From positions 186,001 to 250,000 of the forward strand of contig NZ_CP035042.1 in NCBI RefSeq assembly GCF_009834345.1: a stretch of 64,000 nt of DNA, given 5' to 3'. This stretch comes from Billgrantia tianxiuensis. GTDB taxonomy: Bacteria; Pseudomonadota; Gammaproteobacteria; Pseudomonadales; Halomonadaceae. The stretch's first letter is position 1, and each line of letters starts with the position of its first letter. A program made the translations under genes and the position numbers. The notes under the pieces are model-generated. The model did no database searches. It was not told the DNA's origin and worked only from the letters and a program-made list of their open reading frames with translations. Below, in pieces: positions 37,184-46,208 of the stretch.

Positions 37184-38415
<1,232 letters not shown>

Positions 38416-38425
38416 GAGCCTCGAC

Positions 38426-39154
38426 ATGGCGACTCCCCATATCCAGGGCGAACGCGGCATCTTCGCCGACACCATGCTGATGCCCGGCGACCCGCTGCGT
38501 GCCAAGCATATCGCCGAGACCTTCCTCGAGGATGCGCGCGAGGTCACCAGCGTGCGCAACATGCTCGGCTTCACCGGCCGCTACCGCGGCCGTGAGATCT
38601 CGGTGATGGGCCACGGCATGGGCATCCCCTCGGTCTCCATCTACGCCAAGGAGCTGATCACCGACTATGGCGTGAAGCGCCTCATCCGGGTCGGCTCCTG
38701 CGGCGCGGTGCGCGACGACGTGGCAGTGCGCGACGTGGTGATCGGCCTCGGCGCGAGCACCGATTCGGCGGTCAACCGCACCCGCTTCATGGGCCATGAC
38801 TTCGCCGCCATCGCCGACTTCGAACTGACCCGACACGCGGTGGACGCCGCCGCGGCCCAGGGCGTGCCGGTCAAGGTGGGCAACCTGTTCTCGGCCGACC
38901 TGTTCTACAACCCCCAGGCGGAGCTGTTCACGCTGATGAAGCGCTACGGCATCGTCGGCGTGGAGATGGAGGCGGCGGGACTCTACGGCGTAGCGGCGGA
39001 GTTCGGCGGCCGGGCAATGACCATCTGCACGGTCTCGGACCACATCCTCAAGGGCGAGTCGCTGCCCAGCGAGGCCCGCGAGCGCAGCTTCAACGAGATG
39101 GTCGAGGTGGCCCTAGATGCAGTGCTGCGCGACGACGCGGCGGGGGCGGCATGA
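38426..39154 (+). CDS. deoD: Purine-nucleoside phosphorylase
   Basis: Hexameric DeoD-type phosphorylase releasing purine bases from (deoxy)ribonucleosides. The 242 residues align with E. coli DeoD from the first residues ([36 protein letters not shown]) through [20 protein letters not shown] and [16 protein letters not shown]. The catalytic Asp is in [10 protein letters not shown] near 204. It lies 10 bases after deoB and overlaps cdd by ATGA. Confidence 0.96.
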
Positions 39155-39561
39155 GCGACATCGATCCGAGCGTCGTCGGCGCGCTGATCGCGGCGCGCGG
39201 CAACGCCTACGCGCCCTATTCGCGGCATCCGGTGGGCGCCATGGTGGAGAGCGAGAGCGGCGCGCGTTACTTCGGCGCCAACGTCGAGGTGGCCCACTAC
39301 AAGGGAGTGTGCGCGGAAGCCTCGGCCATCGCCGCCATGGTCAGCGCCGGCGAGCGGCGCCTGCGTCACGTCTACGTGATCGGCCCCGGTGAGCACCTGT
39401 GTTCGCCCTGCGGCGACTGCCGCCAGCGCATCCGCGAGTTCGCCGACGCCGAGACCCGTATCCACGTGGTCGACGCCGAGGGCCGGCTGCTCAAGCGCTA
39501 CACCATGGAACAGCTCCTGCCCGATGCCTTCGGACCGGAGAATCTGGAACTCACTCCCTGA
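39151..39561 (+). CDS. cdd: Cytidine deaminase
   Basis: Deaminates cytidine and deoxycytidine to the uracil nucleosides. The 136-residue tetrameric-type enzyme has the zinc site C-A-E in VCAEASA near residue 51-57 and PCGDCRQ near 88-94, and the substrate segment [10 protein letters not shown]. It is the last gene of the deo operon. Its 3' end overlaps convergent nrdG by 11 bases. Confidence 0.95.
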
Positions 39562-40300
39562 ACTCGATGCGTTCGAAGTGCGGCCCCAGGCGCCTGACCA
39601 GCCCGGCCAGCATCGCCCGTGGCGGAGCGTTCTCCACCGGCTGGCAGTAGGCCGGGTCGAGGCACTGGCGGGTGCGGGCCACCTGGATGGCGTAGCGGCG
39701 TACGCCGCAGTCGGCCAGGGTCAGTGCCAGACGCTCCACCTCGGCCAGCGAGAAGTCGCGCCAGTGCACGGTGGTGCGGCATTCGAAGTCGACGCCGCCG
39801 TCGAGCAGCGCCATCAGGCTCTGGCTGTTGCGCTGCCAGATGCCGGGGCGCCCGCAGATGCGGTCGAAGTCGCCCCCGCGTCCCTTCACGTCGAGCCCCA
39901 CCCAGTCGAGCCACGGCAGCAGCCGCGAGAGCCGCGCCGGGTAGGGGCCGGCGGTGTGCAAGCCGACCTTGAAGCCCATCGCCTTCACCTCGCGTACCGC
40001 CGCCGGCAGGGCGTTGTGCAGCGTCGGCTCGCCGCCGCTGAACACCACCGCCTCGAGCAGGCCCCGGCGGCTCTCCAGGAACTCCCGTACCGCCTGCCAC
40101 TCGCTCTCGTCGCCGCGGCGCGGCGGCATCATGTGGCCGTTGTGGCAGTAGCCGCAGCGCAGCGGACAGCCCTGCAGGAACACCACGCAGGCCAGGTGAT
40201 CCGGATAGTCCAGGGTGGTCATCTGGGTCAGGCCGGCAATGGGGAGGCGGATGCCGTCGAGAGGCGCGAGGGCGGGCGGGTCGAGGTCGGTGGCGATCAT
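39551..40300 (-). CDS. nrdG: Class III ribonucleotide reductase activase NrdG (copy 1)
   Basis: Radical-SAM enzyme that installs the glycyl radical on the anaerobic reductase. The 249 residues hold the cluster motif CPLRCGYCHN near residues 45-54, FSGGEPTLHNAL and TVHWRDFSLAEVERLA. It is the longer, YjjW/PflA-like NrdG type rather than the 154-residue E. coli form. It follows the split nrdD and the 54-residue glycyl-radical gene in one operon. A second copy, nearly identical over most of its length, lies at 44523-45268. Confidence 0.92.
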   Translation of the reverse strand: MIATDLDPPALAPLDGIRLPIAGLTQMTTLDYPDHLACVVFLQGCPLRCGYCHNGHMMPPRRGDESEWQAVREFLESRRGLLEAVVFSGGEPTLHNALPAAVREVKAMGFKVGLHTAGPYPARLSRLLPWLDWVGLDVKGRGGDFDRICGRPGIWQRNSQSLMALLDGGVDFECRTTVHWRDFSLAEVERLALTLADCGVRRYAIQVARTRQCLDPAYCQPVENAPPRAMLAGLVRRLGPHFERIEFRE

Positions 40301-40358
40301 GAGAGGCTCCTCGGCTTGGGGCGTGAATGCCGGGCACAGGGCCCGGCAGGTCAGGCAG

Positions 40359-40523
40359 TCAGGGCGTCAGGTCGGCGGCCCGCTCGGTGAAGTGACGGCG
40401 CTCGCGGTGCTCGGCGCGCTTGCCGACGTTGAACTGGCTGACCGGGCGGTGGTAGCCCATCACGCGGGTCCAGACCTCGCAGCGCTGGCGTTGTTCGGTG
40501 GGCAGGGTGTCGATGTTCGTCAT
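40359..40523 (-). CDS. Detached glycyl-radical C-terminus of class III ribonucleotide reductase (54 residues)
   Basis: A 54-residue gene. The segment CEVWTRVMGYHRPVSQF near residues 15-31, then NVGKRAEHRERRHF, matches the extreme C-terminus of NrdD proteins (Thermotoga-type RVVGYLRPV...GK..EF..R). The Gly in RVMGY (Gly23) is the position of the stable glycyl radical. Start ATG 40523 has the strong site AAGGAG 7 bases upstream. It lies 46 bases after the nrdD stop, in a different frame, so it is not a simple frameshift of nrdD. It probably assembles with NrdD and is activated by NrdG, as GrcA does for Pfl (inference). Confidence 0.85.
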   Translation of the reverse strand: MTNIDTLPTEQRQRCEVWTRVMGYHRPVSQFNVGKRAEHRERRHFTERAADLTP

Positions 40524-40569
40524 GGTTTGGCTCCTTCCAAGGGGTTGATGACAGCGGTTAAAAAAACGC

Positions 40570-42300
40570 TCAGGCCGGTACGGCCGCGGCGCGTCTTGCC
40601 AGCAGTGCCTCGTCGCACTTCGGGCAGAACTCGTGTTCGCCGGCCAGGTAGCCGTGCACCGGGCAGATCGAGAAGGTCGGCGTCACGGTGATGTAGGGCA
40701 GGCGGAAGCGCGACAGCGCAGTGTGCACCAGCTTGCGGCAGGCGGTGGCGCTGGAGAGCCGCTCGCGCATGTAGAGGTGCAGCACGGTGCCGCCGGTGTA
40801 GCGGGTCTGCAGCGGGTCCTGGTGGATCAGCGCCTCGAAGGGGTCGTCGGTATGCCCCACCGGCAGCTGGCTCGAGTTGGTGTAGTAGGGCGCCTCTGGC
40901 GTGCCCGCCTGCAGAATGCCCGGGAAGTGCTCGGCGTCGGCGCGGGCGAAGCGATAGGTGGTGCCCTCCGCCGGGGTCGCCTCCAGGTTGTAGAGGTGGC
41001 CGGTCTCGGCCTGGAACTCCTGCATCCTGGCGCGCACGTGGTCGAGCACTTCCAGGGCGAGTTGGCGCCCCTCGGGGGCGGTGATGTCGTAGCGGTCGTC
41101 GCAGAAGTTGCGCACCATCTCGTTGAGCCCGTTCACGCCCAGGGTGGAGAAGTGGTTGCGCAGGGTGCCCAGGTAGCGCTGGGTATAGGGGTAGAGCCCT
41201 TCGTCCATCCACTGCTGGATGCGCTCGCGCTTGAGCTCCAGGCTGTCGCGGCCCAGCGCCAGCAGGCGGTCGAACTCGGTGAACAGCCCCGCCCGGTCGC
41301 CGGCGAAGCGGTAGCCCAGCCGCGCGCAGTTGAGCGTCACCACGCCCAGCGAGCCGGTCTGCTCGGCGCTGCCGAACAGGCCGTTGCCGCGCTTGAGCAG
41401 CTCAGAGAGGTCGAGCTGCAGGCGGCAGCACATGGAGCGCACCATGTGCGGCTCCAGGTCGGAGTTGAGGAAGTTCTGGAAGTAGGGCAGGCCGTACTTG
41501 GCGGTCAGTGCGAACAGCCGCTCGGCGTTGTCGCCCTCCCAGTCGAAATCGGGGGTGATGTTGTAGGTGGGGATAGGGAAGGTGAACACCCGTCCCTGGC
41601 GGTCGCCGGCCTCCATCACCTCCAGGTAGGCGCGGTTGAGCAGGTCCATCTCCGCCTGCAGCTCGCCGTAGGTGAAGGGCTGCTCCTCGCCGCCGACGAT
41701 CGGTACCTGATCGCGCAGGTCCGCCGGGCACACCCAGTCGAAGGTGAGGTTGGTGAAGGGAGTCTGGCTGCCCCAGCGCGACGGCACGTTGAGGTTGTAG
41801 ATGAACTCCTGGATCGCCTGCTTCACCGCGGCATAGTCGAGTCCGTCCCTGCGCACGTAGGGGGCGAGATAGGTATCGAAGGAGCTGAAGGCCTGGGCGC
41901 CAGCCCACTCGTTCTGCAGCGTGCCGAGGAAGTTGACCATCTGCCCCAGGGCGCTGGAGAGGTGGCGCGGCGGGCCGCTCTCGGCGCGCCCGGGCACGCC
42001 GTTGAAGCCCTCGATCAGCAGCTGGCGCAGCGACCAGCCGGCGCAGTAGCCGCACAGCATGTCGAGATCGTGGATGTGCAGGTCGCCCTCGCGGTGGGCG
42101 GCGCCGACCTCGGCCGGGTAGACCTCGTCGAGCCAGTAGTTGGCGATCAGCTTGCCCGAGACGTTGAGGATCAGCCCGCCCAAGGAGTAGCCCTGGTTGG
42201 CGTTGGCGTGCACGCGCCAGTCGGCGCGGTCGAGGTATTCGTCGACGGTCGAGGCGACGTCGATGCGGCGCGGGCCGGCTTGGCGTATGGGGGCGTTCAC
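40570..42300 (-). CDS. nrdD: Anaerobic (class III) ribonucleoside-triphosphate reductase NrdD without its glycyl-radical tail
   Basis: Catalytic chain of the oxygen-sensitive reductase. The 576 residues from GTG 42300 (AGGGAG 7 bases upstream) contain NANANQGYSLGGLILNVSGK, GDLHIHDLDMLCGYCAGWSLR and GFNGVPGRAESGPP near the N-terminus. At the C-terminus the zinc site reads CPVHGYLAGEHEFCPKC. After it, the protein stops within about 14 residues, where other NrdD proteins continue into the radical Gly loop. An N-terminal ATP-cone is also missing, although the frame is open to 42483. An FNR-type promoter lies upstream. Confidence 0.93.
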   Translation of the reverse strand: MNAPIRQAGPRRIDVASTVDEYLDRADWRVHANANQGYSLGGLILNVSGKLIANYWLDEVYPAEVGAAHREGDLHIHDLDMLCGYCAGWSLRQLLIEGFNGVPGRAESGPPRHLSSALGQMVNFLGTLQNEWAGAQAFSSFDTYLAPYVRRDGLDYAAVKQAIQEFIYNLNVPSRWGSQTPFTNLTFDWVCPADLRDQVPIVGGEEQPFTYGELQAEMDLLNRAYLEVMEAGDRQGRVFTFPIPTYNITPDFDWEGDNAERLFALTAKYGLPYFQNFLNSDLEPHMVRSMCCRLQLDLSELLKRGNGLFGSAEQTGSLGVVTLNCARLGYRFAGDRAGLFTEFDRLLALGRDSLELKRERIQQWMDEGLYPYTQRYLGTLRNHFSTLGVNGLNEMVRNFCDDRYDITAPEGRQLALEVLDHVRARMQEFQAETGHLYNLEATPAEGTTYRFARADAEHFPGILQAGTPEAPYYTNSSQLPVGHTDDPFEALIHQDPLQTRYTGGTVLHLYMRERLSSATACRKLVHTALSRFRLPYITVTPTFSICPVHGYLAGEHEFCPKCDEALLARRAAAVPA

Positions 42301-42387
42301 CGTTATCTCCCTATATGTGCTGCCGTTAGATGTGTTGATGCACAACATATGGTATGTGAAGGCTAGTGCCTTCGGCGGCGGGAGAAC

Positions 42388-42401
42388 ATGACCCAGGTCA
42401 G
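42388..42401 (-). promoter_or_regulatory. FNR/DNR-type box of the nrdD promoter
   Basis: ATGACCCAGGTCAG contains the full inner core TGAC-N4-GTCA of the FNR-type site, with mismatches only at both ends. The minus-strand -10 hexamer TAGCCT at 42365-42360 is centred exactly 32 bp from the box centre. Confidence 0.65.
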
Positions 42402-42435
42402 AAAAAGACCAATTGTAAGCTCGGGGAACGACGAA

Positions 42436-42453
42436 CCCCGCCGGCTGGCGGGG
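42436..42453 (-). terminator. Hairpin after the DUF6448 gene
   Basis: Stem CCCCGCC / GGCGGGG with a GGCT/AGCC loop, between the DUF6448 stop and the nrdD promoter. No clear T-tract on the minus strand. Confidence 0.4.
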
Positions 42454-42557
42454 CTCGAAAACGGTTGCAAAGATGCTGATCACGGGCGGCGTCGAAGATG
42501 GCGATCCATGGGCTTCCGGTAGCGTCGGTTAGCTGCTGCTAGCCGCCAGTAGCTTCC

Positions 42558-43157
42558 TTAGTGGCCATGCCCACTATTGCCGGCAATGACGTTGTGCACG
42601 TCCTCCAGATAGTGAACGTAGTGCACATAATGGTCGACGAACACCCGGCCCCGCTCGGGATCGTTGTCCGCTTGCTGCTTGGCGGCCAGCGTGGCCTCGA
42701 AGGCAGAGCGGGCATTGTGTTCGAACTTCTCTACGATGCGCGCCAGAAAGGCATTGATCTCGCCCTCTTCTAGCGCCTTATCGGCGAGCTGCACGACCGG
42801 GTCGATTTTTCCGGCCGGCTTGATGCCGGTGAAGGGAGCGCCTTCCGAAGCGCGATGGCTTTCCACCAGCTCCGCGAAGAACTGCTGGTCGGCCAACTCT
42901 TGGGCGCTGCCGCCGTTCTGGCGAACCTCGCGCGCTTTCTCGAACGTCGACGAGATTCGAGCCTCGTCCGCGGCTGGAACCCACTTCAGGACCGGGGTGA
43001 CATCTCCTGATTCCAGGGCGATTCGTGCCTCAGAAATCACCGGGCCATCAAGGGCATCGCAATGGGCCATCGCGGGGGCAGCAAGAGCCAGGGTCAAGGC
43101 GGAGGAAGCGGCAAGGGCGAGCAGCGTCTTGCGTAGGGGTAGGCGAAGGTAGGTCAT
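42558..43157 (-). CDS. Secreted DUF6448-family protein
   Basis: A 199-residue exported protein of unknown function. The signal peptide ends at APAMA-HCD, and the mature part starts HCDALDGPVISEARIALESGDVTPVLKWV, the family hallmark. A His-rich end (VDHYVHYVHYLEDVHNVIAGNSGHGH) could bind metal. ATG 43157 has AAGGAGA upstream. It has no obvious link to the neighbouring anaerobic genes. Confidence 0.75.
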   Translation of the reverse strand: MTYLRLPLRKTLLALAASSALTLALAAPAMAHCDALDGPVISEARIALESGDVTPVLKWVPAADEARISSTFEKAREVRQNGGSAQELADQQFFAELVESHRASEGAPFTGIKPAGKIDPVVQLADKALEEGEINAFLARIVEKFEHNARSAFEATLAAKQQADNDPERGRVFVDHYVHYVHYLEDVHNVIAGNSGHGH

Positions 43158-43358
43158 GATGGTCTCCTTGGTTCAAGGTTGCAGCCGTTTACGTGTTTCG
43201 GCTGTCCTTCATGCTATGGAGACTGGGGATTCGAATCGTTCGCCAAGGCGATCTCGAACGCTGTCGGAAAACTGAAGAAGTTTTGTTAAATCAAATTCTT
43301 GCGGGTTCTGTTCTGGGGCGGCAAGAAGTCGAACTTCCTTCTGTGCCGGGCGGTCCGG

Positions 43359-44504
43359 TCACTCGCCGTCAGCAGCCAATTGTCGTGCACGATACTCGCG
43401 GGGCGTCATGCCGGTCGCTCTCTTGAATGCCGTATTGAAGACCGACTTCGAGTTGAAGCCGGAGTCGTACATCACTTGCAGTATGGTCTGGTGGGTGTCG
43501 GCAGTCAGACGCCTGCGCGCCTCGGCGACACGGTAATCGCTGACGAATTCGAAGAAGTTCTTCCCCAGCCCCTGGTTGATGGCGCGCGACAGCTCCCGGG
43601 TGGGCACATTGAGCTGTCGAGCGAGCTGTTGAACGGTCAGATTGGCGTCGAGGTGGGGAGCGGTGCGCCGCATATGATCCTCGAGCCGCATCAGCAGGAC
43701 GGCATTGGCTGGCTGGTCCGTTGTTGTATCCTTGCTGCTGGTTAGCAAACGGGACTCCTCAGCACTGAGGCCCGAGAACACGATGGGCTGTCGCAGAGCG
43801 TGAAGGAGCAAGTAGTTGATGAACAGGAAGCCCGTCACCCCGCCCACTGTCGATACCCACCATACGCTGGCGCTGCTCTTGAACACGTGCGCCGACAGGC
43901 AGTAGACCAGACTGACACTCCACACGACCGTATAGCCCAGCAACAGCACACGTAGCCAGGCCAGCTGCTTGTTCTCGATGTTGGAGAATATTTGCCTCAA
44001 ATCCGTGCCAAAAACCGTGATCTCGCGAATGGTGGCGATCAGATAGCCGAGAAAGACCAGGTGGATCGCAGCTGCCAGGAGCGGTGAGGTCAATACCCCC
44101 GGATGATCGCGCTCCATCAGGATCAGGCGCTTCAGTTCGTCCGGTTGAAGATAGTACTCGACCAGGAAGATGGCGCCGACTATCCAGAATAGAAGGGTAT
44201 GGATCCAGTGCCCTGGAGTCAGGCGAAAGTCCTGATACATCAGGGATTTGGCATAAAGAAACAACAGGCCGGCCTGCAGTAGGCCGACCAGCGTGCCCAG
44301 GTAGGCCAGGTTGAGGAAACGCTGCGCCAGCCCCGTGCTGTACAAGAAGACTTCGGCCAGGCCTGCAGCAAAGGCAAGCACTGTCGCCAACAGCAGGCGG
44401 TTGCTGAGTAGATGGATGTTGTCTGGCATTAGCAGGAAACCGGCGAGCACCAGCGATTGCAGGATGCTAGTCAATAGCAGGATGTCCGCCACGCTCAAGT
44501 ACAT
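43359..44504 (-). CDS. Membrane-anchored AraC-family regulator
   Basis: A 381-residue transcription factor with about seven N-terminal membrane helices (residues 5-235) and a C-terminal AraC/XylS DNA-binding domain. Helix-turn-helix segments are LTVQQLARQLNVPTRELSRAINQ near 290 and ILQVMYDSGFNSKSVFNTAFKRATGMTPREYR near 340-372. Such proteins sense a membrane or periplasmic signal. It begins 18 bases after the nrdG2 stop on the same strand, so it may be transcribed from the anaerobic ubiU promoter. Its targets are unknown. Confidence 0.85.
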   Translation of the reverse strand: MYLSVADILLLTSILQSLVLAGFLLMPDNIHLLSNRLLLATVLAFAAGLAEVFLYSTGLAQRFLNLAYLGTLVGLLQAGLLFLYAKSLMYQDFRLTPGHWIHTLLFWIVGAIFLVEYYLQPDELKRLILMERDHPGVLTSPLLAAAIHLVFLGYLIATIREITVFGTDLRQIFSNIENKQLAWLRVLLLGYTVVWSVSLVYCLSAHVFKSSASVWWVSTVGGVTGFLFINYLLLHALRQPIVFSGLSAEESRLLTSSKDTTTDQPANAVLLMRLEDHMRRTAPHLDANLTVQQLARQLNVPTRELSRAINQGLGKNFFEFVSDYRVAEARRRLTADTHQTILQVMYDSGFNSKSVFNTAFKRATGMTPREYRARQLAADGE

Positions 44505-44522
44505 CGTGTCACTCCGGCCAGC

Positions 44523-45268
44523 CTACTCGCGCAGCTCTATGCGTTCGAAGTTTGGCGCCAGGCGCTTGACCAGCCCGGCGAGCATGGCCCGGGGCGGGGC
44601 GCCTGCGACCGGCTGGCAGTAGGTCGGGTCGAGGCAGTCGCGGGTGCGGGCCACCTGAATGGCGTAGCGGCGCACGCCACAGTCAGCCAGGGTCAGTGCC
44701 AGACGCTCCACGTCGGCCAGATCAAAGTCGCGCCAATGGACGGTGGTACGGCACTCGAAGTCGATCCCGCTTTCGAGCAGCGCCATCAGGCTCTGGCTGT
44801 TGCGCTGCCAGATGCCCGGCCGCCCGCAGATTCGATCGAAGTCGCGCCCGCGACCCTTCACATCGAGCCCCACCCAGTCGAGGTGCGGCAGCAGGCGTGT
44901 AAGTCGTGCGGGGTAGGGGCCGGCGGTGTGCAAGCCCACCTTGAAGCCCATTGCTTTCACCTCGCGAATGGCGATTGGCAGAGCGTTGTGCAGCGTTGGC
45001 TCCCCGCCGCTGAAGACTACCGCCTCGAGCAGCCCCGGCGGTGCTCCAGGAACTCCCGTACCGCCTGCCACTCGCTCTCGTCACCGCGTCGCGGCGTCAT
45101 CCGCTGGCTATTGTCGCAGTAGCCGCAGCGCAGCGGGCAGCCCTGCAGGAACACTACGCAGGCCAAGTGGTCGGGGTAGTCCAGTGTCGTTAACTGGTTC
45201 ATGCCCGCCACCGGCAGGCGAATGCCGTCGAGAGGTGTCGATACCCCGTCTATGGCAATCAGCGGCAT
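44523..45268 (-). CDS. nrdG: Second NrdG radical-SAM activase, frame broken at 45033-45036
   Basis: A near-duplicate of the nrdG at 39551-40300: CPLRCGYCDN cluster motif near residue 44, FSGGEPTLHNALP, GLDVKGRGRDFDRICGRPGIWQRN. The first 80 codons and the rest are in different frames. One more G in the minus-strand GGGG run (45036-45033) gives HRRGLLEAVVFSGGEPT and a full protein of about 248 residues. It lies behind ubiU-ubiV with its own start at 45268, so this copy would also be expressed in anoxia. Confidence 0.88.
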
Positions 45269-45293
45269 GGCGTTCTCCCTTGCACGTGGTTGA

Positions 45294-46208
45294 TCAGCCG
45301 GCGGGCAGACGGGTGTTGTCCATGCCCGGGCGGCCGTGCCAGTAGCCGTCGCACACCTCGGCCTCGACCAGGCTGAGTGGATCAGCGGCGGGCAGCTCGC
45401 CGCGGCGGGCGGCGTCGAAGGCGGCGACCACCTCGGCCATGCCCTCGGCGCGGGGGCTCAGGCGCGCCACGCTCACGCCCATCGCGGTCATGTCTTTGAT
45501 CTCGTGGCGTAGGTCCTGGCAGGCGCCGGAGAGGGTCTGGATGCCGTTCAGGGTGAACACTTCCTTGGATTCCTGGGAGCGCAGCGCCAGGCCCTCGGGG
45601 TACTTCTGGCACACGAACATGCAGCGGTCCTTGGGCTTCTGGTGGCGCCGTGCGGTGAAGCAGCGTGACGACCAGGCCAGCGGCAGGTGACCGTAGGCGA
45701 ACACCTCGCAGGGCGCATCGAGCCCCTCGGCGGTGCAGTCGGCGAGCAGCCGGGCGAGGTCGTCGCGCGACATCTCCACCGGCGCCTGCCAGCGCTGCAT
45801 GCCGGCCCGCGCCATCACGCCGATGGAAGCCGGGTTGTAGAGATTCAGCGCCGCCCCGGCAACGAAGGGCAGGCCGGCGGCGGCCAGGCGTTGCAGGGCG
45901 CTCTGGTCGTTGGCCTCGACCATGAACTCGCCGTTGTCGCACAGCTTGCGCAGGTCGCGCAGGTCGGCCTCGGACTCGATCAGGGTCTGGCTCGCCAGCA
46001 CCACCTGCTTGCCGCTCTGGGCCAGCTCGCGGCCGATGCCGAGCCAGTCGTCGAGCTTCATGTCGCGGCGGCGAGAGCAGACGGATTCGCCCAGGGTGAC
46101 GATCTCCACCGGCCAGTCGGCGGCTTCACGGTAGAAGTCGGCGTAGCGCTCGCGGGTCCAGTAGAACAGCACCGGGCCCAGGGCGAGCTGCAGGGAATCG
46201 GATGACAT
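45294..46208 (-). CDS. ubiV: UbiV, O2-independent ubiquinone hydroxylation subunit
   Basis: U32-peptidase-like iron-sulfur protein that forms a heterodimer with UbiU for the three ring hydroxylations of ubiquinone without O2. The 304 residues carry the four cluster cysteines in the UbiV pattern: one in SVCSRRRD (Cys44) and three in RCFTARRHQKPKDRC-MFVC (C-x12-C-x3-C). ATG 46208 has AGGAGG upstream. It is 8 bases after ubiU. Confidence 0.93.
   Translation of the reverse strand: MSSDSLQLALGPVLFYWTRERYADFYREAADWPVEIVTLGESVCSRRRDMKLDDWLGIGRELAQSGKQVVLASQTLIESEADLRDLRKLCDNGEFMVEANDQSALQRLAAAGLPFVAGAALNLYNPASIGVMARAGMQRWQAPVEMSRDDLARLLADCTAEGLDAPCEVFAYGHLPLAWSSRCFTARRHQKPKDRCMFVCQKYPEGLALRSQESKEVFTLNGIQTLSGACQDLRHEIKDMTAMGVSVARLSPRAEGMAEVVAAFDAARRGELPAADPLSLVEAEVCDGYWHGRPGMDNTRLPAG

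Follow-up and report, generated by a model that had tools for sequence, protein, structure and literature searches.

The window analysed here, a 64,000-nucleotide stretch of the Billgrantia tianxiuensis genome (contig NZ_CP035042.1, positions 186,001 to 250,000), carries a class III ribonucleotide reductase locus in which the catalytic protein, NrdD, and the glycyl radical loop are encoded by separate genes on the minus strand. The nrdD gene (40570-42300; GTG start at 42300, stop codon at 40570-40572) specifies 576 residues that, by profile matches, comprise the class III reductase barrel without an N-terminal ATP-cone and without a glycyl radical loop. The protein matches Pfam NRDD over profile positions 2-531 (570 bits) and NF006126/PRK08270 over positions 92-653 of 684 (1013 bits). 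Residues 290-293 (41422-41433) read MCCR, a finger-loop motif type of the NrdD lineage (PMC9669993; this and the other papers given by PMC number are cited from parts of their text), and M290, C291, C292 and R293 are invariant columns in a 60-row NrdD alignment. So are the four residues of the zinc site CPVHGYLAGEHEFCPKC (40615-40665; Cys546, His549, Cys559 and Cys562), with the fused relatives included; zinc binding at this site is putative and assigned by family. The site is the final element ahead of the stop, as the protein ends in ...SICPVHGYLAGEHEFCPKCDEALLARRAAAVPA 14 residues beyond it.

After a gap of 46 nucleotides (40524-40569), which holds the ribosome site AAGGAG at 40531-40536, a small gene (40359-40523) begins in a frame different from that of nrdD. 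Its 54-residue product, MTNIDTLPTEQRQRCEVWTRVMGYHRPVSQFNVGKRAEHRERRHFTERAADLTP, carries the RVMGY loop, and the codon of the predicted radical glycine, Gly23, lies at 40455-40457. Pfam NRDD matches the small protein over profile positions 531-562, continuing where the match to NrdD ends, and is the only Pfam family returned at E values up to 1; a glycine-radical domain of the pyruvate formate-lyase type gave no match on this protein. Alignment with Thermotoga maritima NrdD is weak (E 0.32) and falls at residues 616-644, the region of Gly621 (PMC4493059). The next gene, nrdG (39551-40300), encodes a 249-residue radical S-adenosylmethionine activase of the NrdG2 type (TIGR02495, 192 bits against a cut-off of 131). 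The sequence-only reading of this DNA had NrdD stopping just past its zinc site, the glycine on a 54-residue gene 46 nucleotides further on in another frame with a strong ribosome site of its own, and nrdG following, and coordinates and translation agree with each point. The locus has the NRDD barrel, the R-V-x-G-Y glycine loop on one of its chains and the NrdG activase expected of class III enzymes, whereas the radical glycine is missing from the barrel polypeptide, where characterised members carry it. Besides the pair in the window, no NRDD match was found in the whole genome (5.0 Mb, one contig), and an Rfam scan of positions 38000-46000 gave no match.

The same break recurs in related genomes. 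In a sample of the order (194 genomes, 29 with NRDD matches), reading of the match table gave 20 genomes split at the same point and 9 unbroken; 17 of the 20 have two separate NRDD matches and three have a single match across a stop. A sample of the class (369 genomes) had 33 genomes above the NF006126 cut-off, of which 28 are split, four are fused (G412, G518, G246 and G205) and one, G527, matches the profile over positions 3-436 only. The small gene is present in all 28 class genomes with a split-type NrdD of visible end, and these are exactly the genomes with small-gene matches at E < 1e-20. The ten others among the 38 small-gene matches are the four fused genes, five matches at E 1e-4 to 1e-3, and G339, in which NrdD residues 13-42 are joined almost directly to a small gene inside which the contig ends; this is a deleted or misassembled copy of the split locus. 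A phylum sample (398 genomes, partly overlapping the class sample) gave 16 genomes above the cut-off, three fused (G246, G205 and G895) and 13 split, the latter again exactly those with a small-gene match below 1e-20. The placing of the radical glycine on a separate subunit by the sequence-only reading is thus supported by genome-wide search and conservation. That reading would have fallen had a full-length NrdD been found elsewhere together with an unconserved small gene; no second NrdD was found, and the small gene occurs in 28 of 28 split genomes. A sequencing or assembly error in the Billgrantia genome, to which we assign next to no probability, is ruled out by the recurrence of the break in 20 of the 29 order genomes with NRDD matches and on the finished plasmid pHG1 of Cupriavidus necator H16.

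A scan of named genomes gave at least 584 related stretches, 80 of which were listed and classified. Among these 80 loci, 75 are split (including L152) and three are fused (L148, L156 and a tandem form, L137); the remaining two are L144, which has no NrdD nearby and adjoins phage tail genes, and L163, which has the small gene and nrdG. By record title the listed loci include Billgrantia, Halomonas, Pseudomonas, Stutzerimonas, Thiobacillus, Verrucomicrobiaceae and Candidatus Magasanikbacteria, several of them on contigs of metagenome-assembled genomes (MAGs) whose taxon titles may be wrong. Small-gene matches were also found in 29 plasmid records, among them Paracoccus, Cupriavidus and Bradyrhizobium, of which three were looked at. 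On pHG1, RefSeq annotates 'ribonucleoside triphosphate reductase', a 66-residue 'nrdD' and the activating protein as three proteins, an instance of the short proteins that had been suspected to sit in databases under an nrdD label. Siedow et al. in 1999 reportedly found nrdD and nrdG of the pHG1 anaerobic reductase to be needed for anaerobic growth of C. necator H16, with an NrdD of ~76 kDa, and this work is the likeliest place for prior art on the small gene. The terms nrdD and nrdG do not occur in the accessible part of a transposon fitness paper on C. necator.

Two loci have peculiarities of their own. On the Bradyrhizobium japonicum plasmid pS11L-3 (L269), nrdD matches flank an IS3-family transposase gene and nrdD looks interrupted by it, with the small gene and nrdG annotated downstream. 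In genome G092, one of the 17 order genomes with two separate NRDD matches, TGA occurs in frame at nine codons of the split nrdD on contig C163 (L027, L252). Glycine is the aligned residue at six of these, and the radical glycine of the small protein is itself encoded by TGA. The pattern resembles UGA=Gly recoding (NCBI table 25), and the contig is perhaps misbinned.

The arrangement of the two genes was compared over 122 distinct bacterial split loci; two further rows, both from genome G831, have no nearby small gene. The small gene lies downstream of nrdD in all 122, separated by a median of 32 nucleotides (range -38 to 258), and relative to nrdD it is in frame 0 in 31 loci, +1 in 55 and +2 in 36. 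A ribosome site of at least five bases precedes 106 of the 122 small genes, one of four bases precedes 11 and none was seen at five, against 96 of 2440 control ATGs with at least five bases; the count takes the best of several candidate ATGs per small gene and so somewhat favours it. In G831 ~9 kb separates the truncated nrdD (C4:22532-24490) from the small gene (C4:33649-33786), which is directly ahead of nrdG. The small gene sits just after a truncated nrdD in the 122 loci, and does not in G831 or in most of the viral records described below, where it stands alone. The same data bear on a programmed frameshift or stop read-through that would join the frames into a full-length NrdD. The shared frame in 31 of the 122 loci would suit such a mechanism, whereas the occurrence of all three relative frames, the ribosome sites of the small genes, the separation in G831 and the lone viral genes speak against it. 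Because some of the genes are unlinked it is excluded as a general mechanism, and we consider it very improbable overall.

Across 41 small proteins, the window protein included, R12, C15, E16, R20, M22, G23, R26, P27, N32, G34, K35, E38, R42 and F45 are invariant; the motifs used to gather these sequences contain some of these residues. Over the 36 codons around the loop, the ratio of nonsynonymous to synonymous substitution rates (dN/dS), taken for pairs with a synonymous divergence of 0.08-0.6, is below 1 in 2345 of 2345 bacterial pairs (median 0.20) and in 267 of 267 viral pairs (median 0.29). Cys15 (40479-40481), just ahead of the loop, is found in 122 of 122 bacterial sequences, the tandem fusion L137 included, and in 59 of 62 viral ones. 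One scan pattern contains this residue, so the count for bacteria is in part a product of selection. Four of the six fused relatives in the tree described below have Thr at this position, and NrdD already holds four zinc-site residues without Cys15.

Stand-alone copies of the small gene occur on viral contigs, where a scan gave 281 relatives, 80 of them listed and used. No nrdD or nrdG match lay near the small gene in 78 of these 80 loci (fetched flanks, up to 4 kb); the extra flank match at L187 comes from the small gene itself, whose match is extended there. The 64.5-kb contig L200 carries a split nrdD and is the sole record of 40 searched whole with a catalytic NrdD, the other 39 (whole records of 16-108 kb, an upper figure) having no other NRDD match. 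The NrdD of L200 contains extra internal sequence of over 100 codons. From the fetched flanks of 18 of these loci 111 proteins were scanned, and the families found include terminase, portal, integrase, DNA polymerase, clamp loader and endolysin; a tape-measure and a Mu-like head protein were seen in single cases. The loop glycine is kept in all 80 listed loci, and a ribosome site of at least four bases precedes a start codon in 38 of 62 distinct viral small proteins, fewer than in bacteria. Ten of these 62 (L166, L172, L177, L182, L187, L191, L202, L204, L216 and L235) have a Cys-rich N-terminal extension ahead of the loop, often with a GRxxPxDC-like motif, which from its sequence is possibly a metal-binding domain. 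Among 50,697 annotated phage records a single match was found, in an archaeal virus (50% identity, 'anaerobic ribonucleoside triphosphate reductase'), and metagenomic viral contigs are therefore the sole source of the stand-alone form in this analysis. Scanned in the correct frame, the window protein and 10 of 10 other proteins from stand-alone or second copies, L144, L167, L187 and L258 among them, matched phrog_4132 ('unknown function') within profile positions 110-156 of 179, leaving the first 110 positions uncovered. The PHROG entry names no function; we identify it here with the radical loop of NrdD. Introns and homing endonucleases that interrupt phage nrdD genes have been described (PMC3653736), and the terms 'glyc' and 'C-terminal' do not occur in the part of that phage reductase survey available to us.

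Two bacterial genomes hold second copies. In G458 one copy adjoins the split nrdD and the other, 91% identical over 55 residues, lies on another contig, flanked by a recT-like gene and a single-strand-binding-protein gene. The block also contains a RecE-like exonuclease, a primase, a processivity factor and a class II (B12-type) reductase; class II ribonucleotide reductases are B12-dependent and have no glycyl radical loop. In G955, a Thiobacillus MAG, one copy adjoins the split nrdD and the second (L144) adjoins the tail genes. We considered that phage copies could be decoys that titrate NrdG or block the host NrdD barrel, since inhibition of host enzymes by phages is common. A decoy would have no need of the glycine, which is present in 80 of 80 listed viral loci (a figure partly selected by the scan patterns), and the dN/dS values below 1 in all 267 usable viral pairs, together with the close likeness of the second G458 copy to the nrdD-side copy and its location in the replication block that also holds a class II reductase, make this explanation improbable. 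It appears somewhat likelier than its opposite that the phage genes supply a radical subunit to the host enzyme.

In the fused relatives L032, L052, L055, L060 and L071 the last zinc Cys is followed by 3-5 residues and then by the loop strand T/C-E-V or T-K-V; in the fused actinobacterial L148 and L156 the linker is longer and the Cys is retained. In the split forms both ends are lengthened (DEELLA... on NrdD and ...DEERQRC on the small protein), and these ends would suit a docking interface. L137 (QKJH01000002.1, an alphaproteobacterial MAG) has NrdD joined in one frame to a tandem pair of glycyl radical domains that are nearly identical, an arrangement resembling a built-in spare. A quick tree was made from 62 NrdD cores, 56 of them split and 6 fused, which remained when 127 distinct rows were thinned with every fused row kept. 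It requires four changes between the fused and split states, at least three by starred branches. Fused L052, L055 and L060 fall outside the split group, and fused L032 and L156 are nested among split forms; the deepest joins are unsure because of the long branches of L060, L071, L070 and L147. Re-fusion is the simplest reading of L156, and for L032, with a tail resembling that of L071, re-fusion and tail exchange are equally possible.

These relationships lend some weight to neutral gene fission, in which the two chains would form a stable, non-exchanging complex and the split would have no role in repair. Class III enzymes evidently tolerate a break between the zinc site and the loop, the two states alternate on the tree with three to four changes, and the idea of exchange draws on analogy. 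Yet the split is maintained across many families, and viral stand-alone copies, unlinked genes and second copies are not easily explained unless the subunit can join a separately made NrdD. We regard neutral fission as unlikely, while giving it more credence than any other alternative.

With high confidence, we interpret the locus as a two-chain class III ribonucleotide reductase whose glycyl radical resides on the small subunit and acts in trans. The interpretation draws on sequence, conservation and unlinked genes, and from these we infer the chemistry. Because the glycine sits on a separate protein in genome after genome, catalysis would have to use it in trans, and because NrdD has no glycine domain of its own, the bacterial small protein would be an obligate subunit. 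In characterised enzymes the activase puts the radical on the NrdD glycine, and oxygen cuts the chain (PMC2795772, PMC4390871). Here NrdD would give the barrel, the MCCR cysteines and the zinc site, and the 54-residue protein the strand-glycine-strand radical loop, which would enter the barrel in trans. NrdG would install the radical on the small protein, probably during or after docking. The radical glycine is where oxygen cleaves glycyl radical enzymes, so that the damage would fall on a cheap 54-residue subunit alone, replaceable without loss of the large NrdD. That an oxygen-cleaved small subunit is actually swapped is plausible by analogy with YfiD and Y06I, and we put its chances at about even. 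Phages that carry the subunit alone would most likely provide the enzyme of the infected host with a radical subunit or renew the one it has. Taken as a whole, a two-subunit enzyme with a trans-acting radical loop, a replaceable small subunit and phage supply is probably the best explanation of the data.

Several points weigh against this interpretation. The structure model is of one tethered chain with fused relatives in its alignment, and such a model cannot test affinity or exchange; the open literature searched yielded no experiment on the small protein. The scan patterns contain VMGYHRP or part of it, so that loop conservation in the fetched sequences is partly selected. Genome G959 (L163) has the small gene and nrdG, and no NrdD was found in this possibly incomplete MAG. 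Viral records may be fragments, which is why 39 of 40 is an upper figure, and the second copies in G458 and G955 may be phage contigs binned with the MAG, not prophages. Re-fusion, as in L156, the tandem L137 and perhaps L032, would be unexpected if exchange were the sole advantage of the split.

Elsewhere in the window, a second nrdG-like gene (44523-45268, minus strand) is 89% identical to nrdG over 170 residues and broken over two frames. It is probably a decayed duplicate, and its neighbours are an AraC-like regulator gene (43359-44504) and the ubiU region of anaerobic ubiquinone genes.

The window enzyme shares the barrel, the MCCR motif, the zinc-site residues, the NrdG2 activase and the radical loop sequence with PRK08270-type (NF006126) class III reductases. 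It differs from the NrdD proteins of solved structure (T. maritima, Prevotella copri, Streptococcus thermophilus and T4), in which the glycine loop is on the NrdD chain and not on a separate 54-residue protein. The sequence-only reading had likened it to GrcA (YfiD), which together with the phage-encoded Y06I of T4 forms the spare parts of pyruvate formate-lyase (PMC8683613). The likeness stands in that a small glycyl radical loop protein completes a large enzyme in trans. It does not extend further, as the target here is a ribonucleotide reductase, the small protein has no domain of the pyruvate formate-lyase type, and YfiD is a spare for a complete partner with its own glycine domain, whereas the window NrdD lacks one, the genome yielded no full-length NrdD and the small protein would be obligate. 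The phage-borne stand-alone copy would be the closer analogue of a spare part. A split class II reductase of Pseudomonas aeruginosa, known here by title alone, likewise has a ribonucleotide reductase spread over two genes. The open literature searched gave no account of a class III reductase in two chains or of a stand-alone radical subunit in phages; most subscription papers were not searchable.

The small gene is already annotated, because RefSeq and Pfam recognise pieces, and it presents an annotation pitfall: taken by itself the catalytic gene seems truncated, and its small partner can easily be overlooked or given the label nrdD. The two-chain form separates radical installation, docking and catalysis, and therefore each step can be assayed alone. 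YfiD and Y06I are the sole validated spare parts, and others for glycyl radical enzymes have been speculated to be possible (PMC8683613); the locus bears on this open question of spare parts beyond pyruvate formate-lyase and would assign a function to the phage family PHROG_4132. It is an evenly balanced prospect that many bacteria have a two-part class III enzyme with a disposable radical subunit and that phages carry this subunit alone to recharge or take over the host reductase. If true, a gene of ~200 bases would be a general radical-part replacement for DNA precursor synthesis, a counterpart of YfiD and T4 Y06I.
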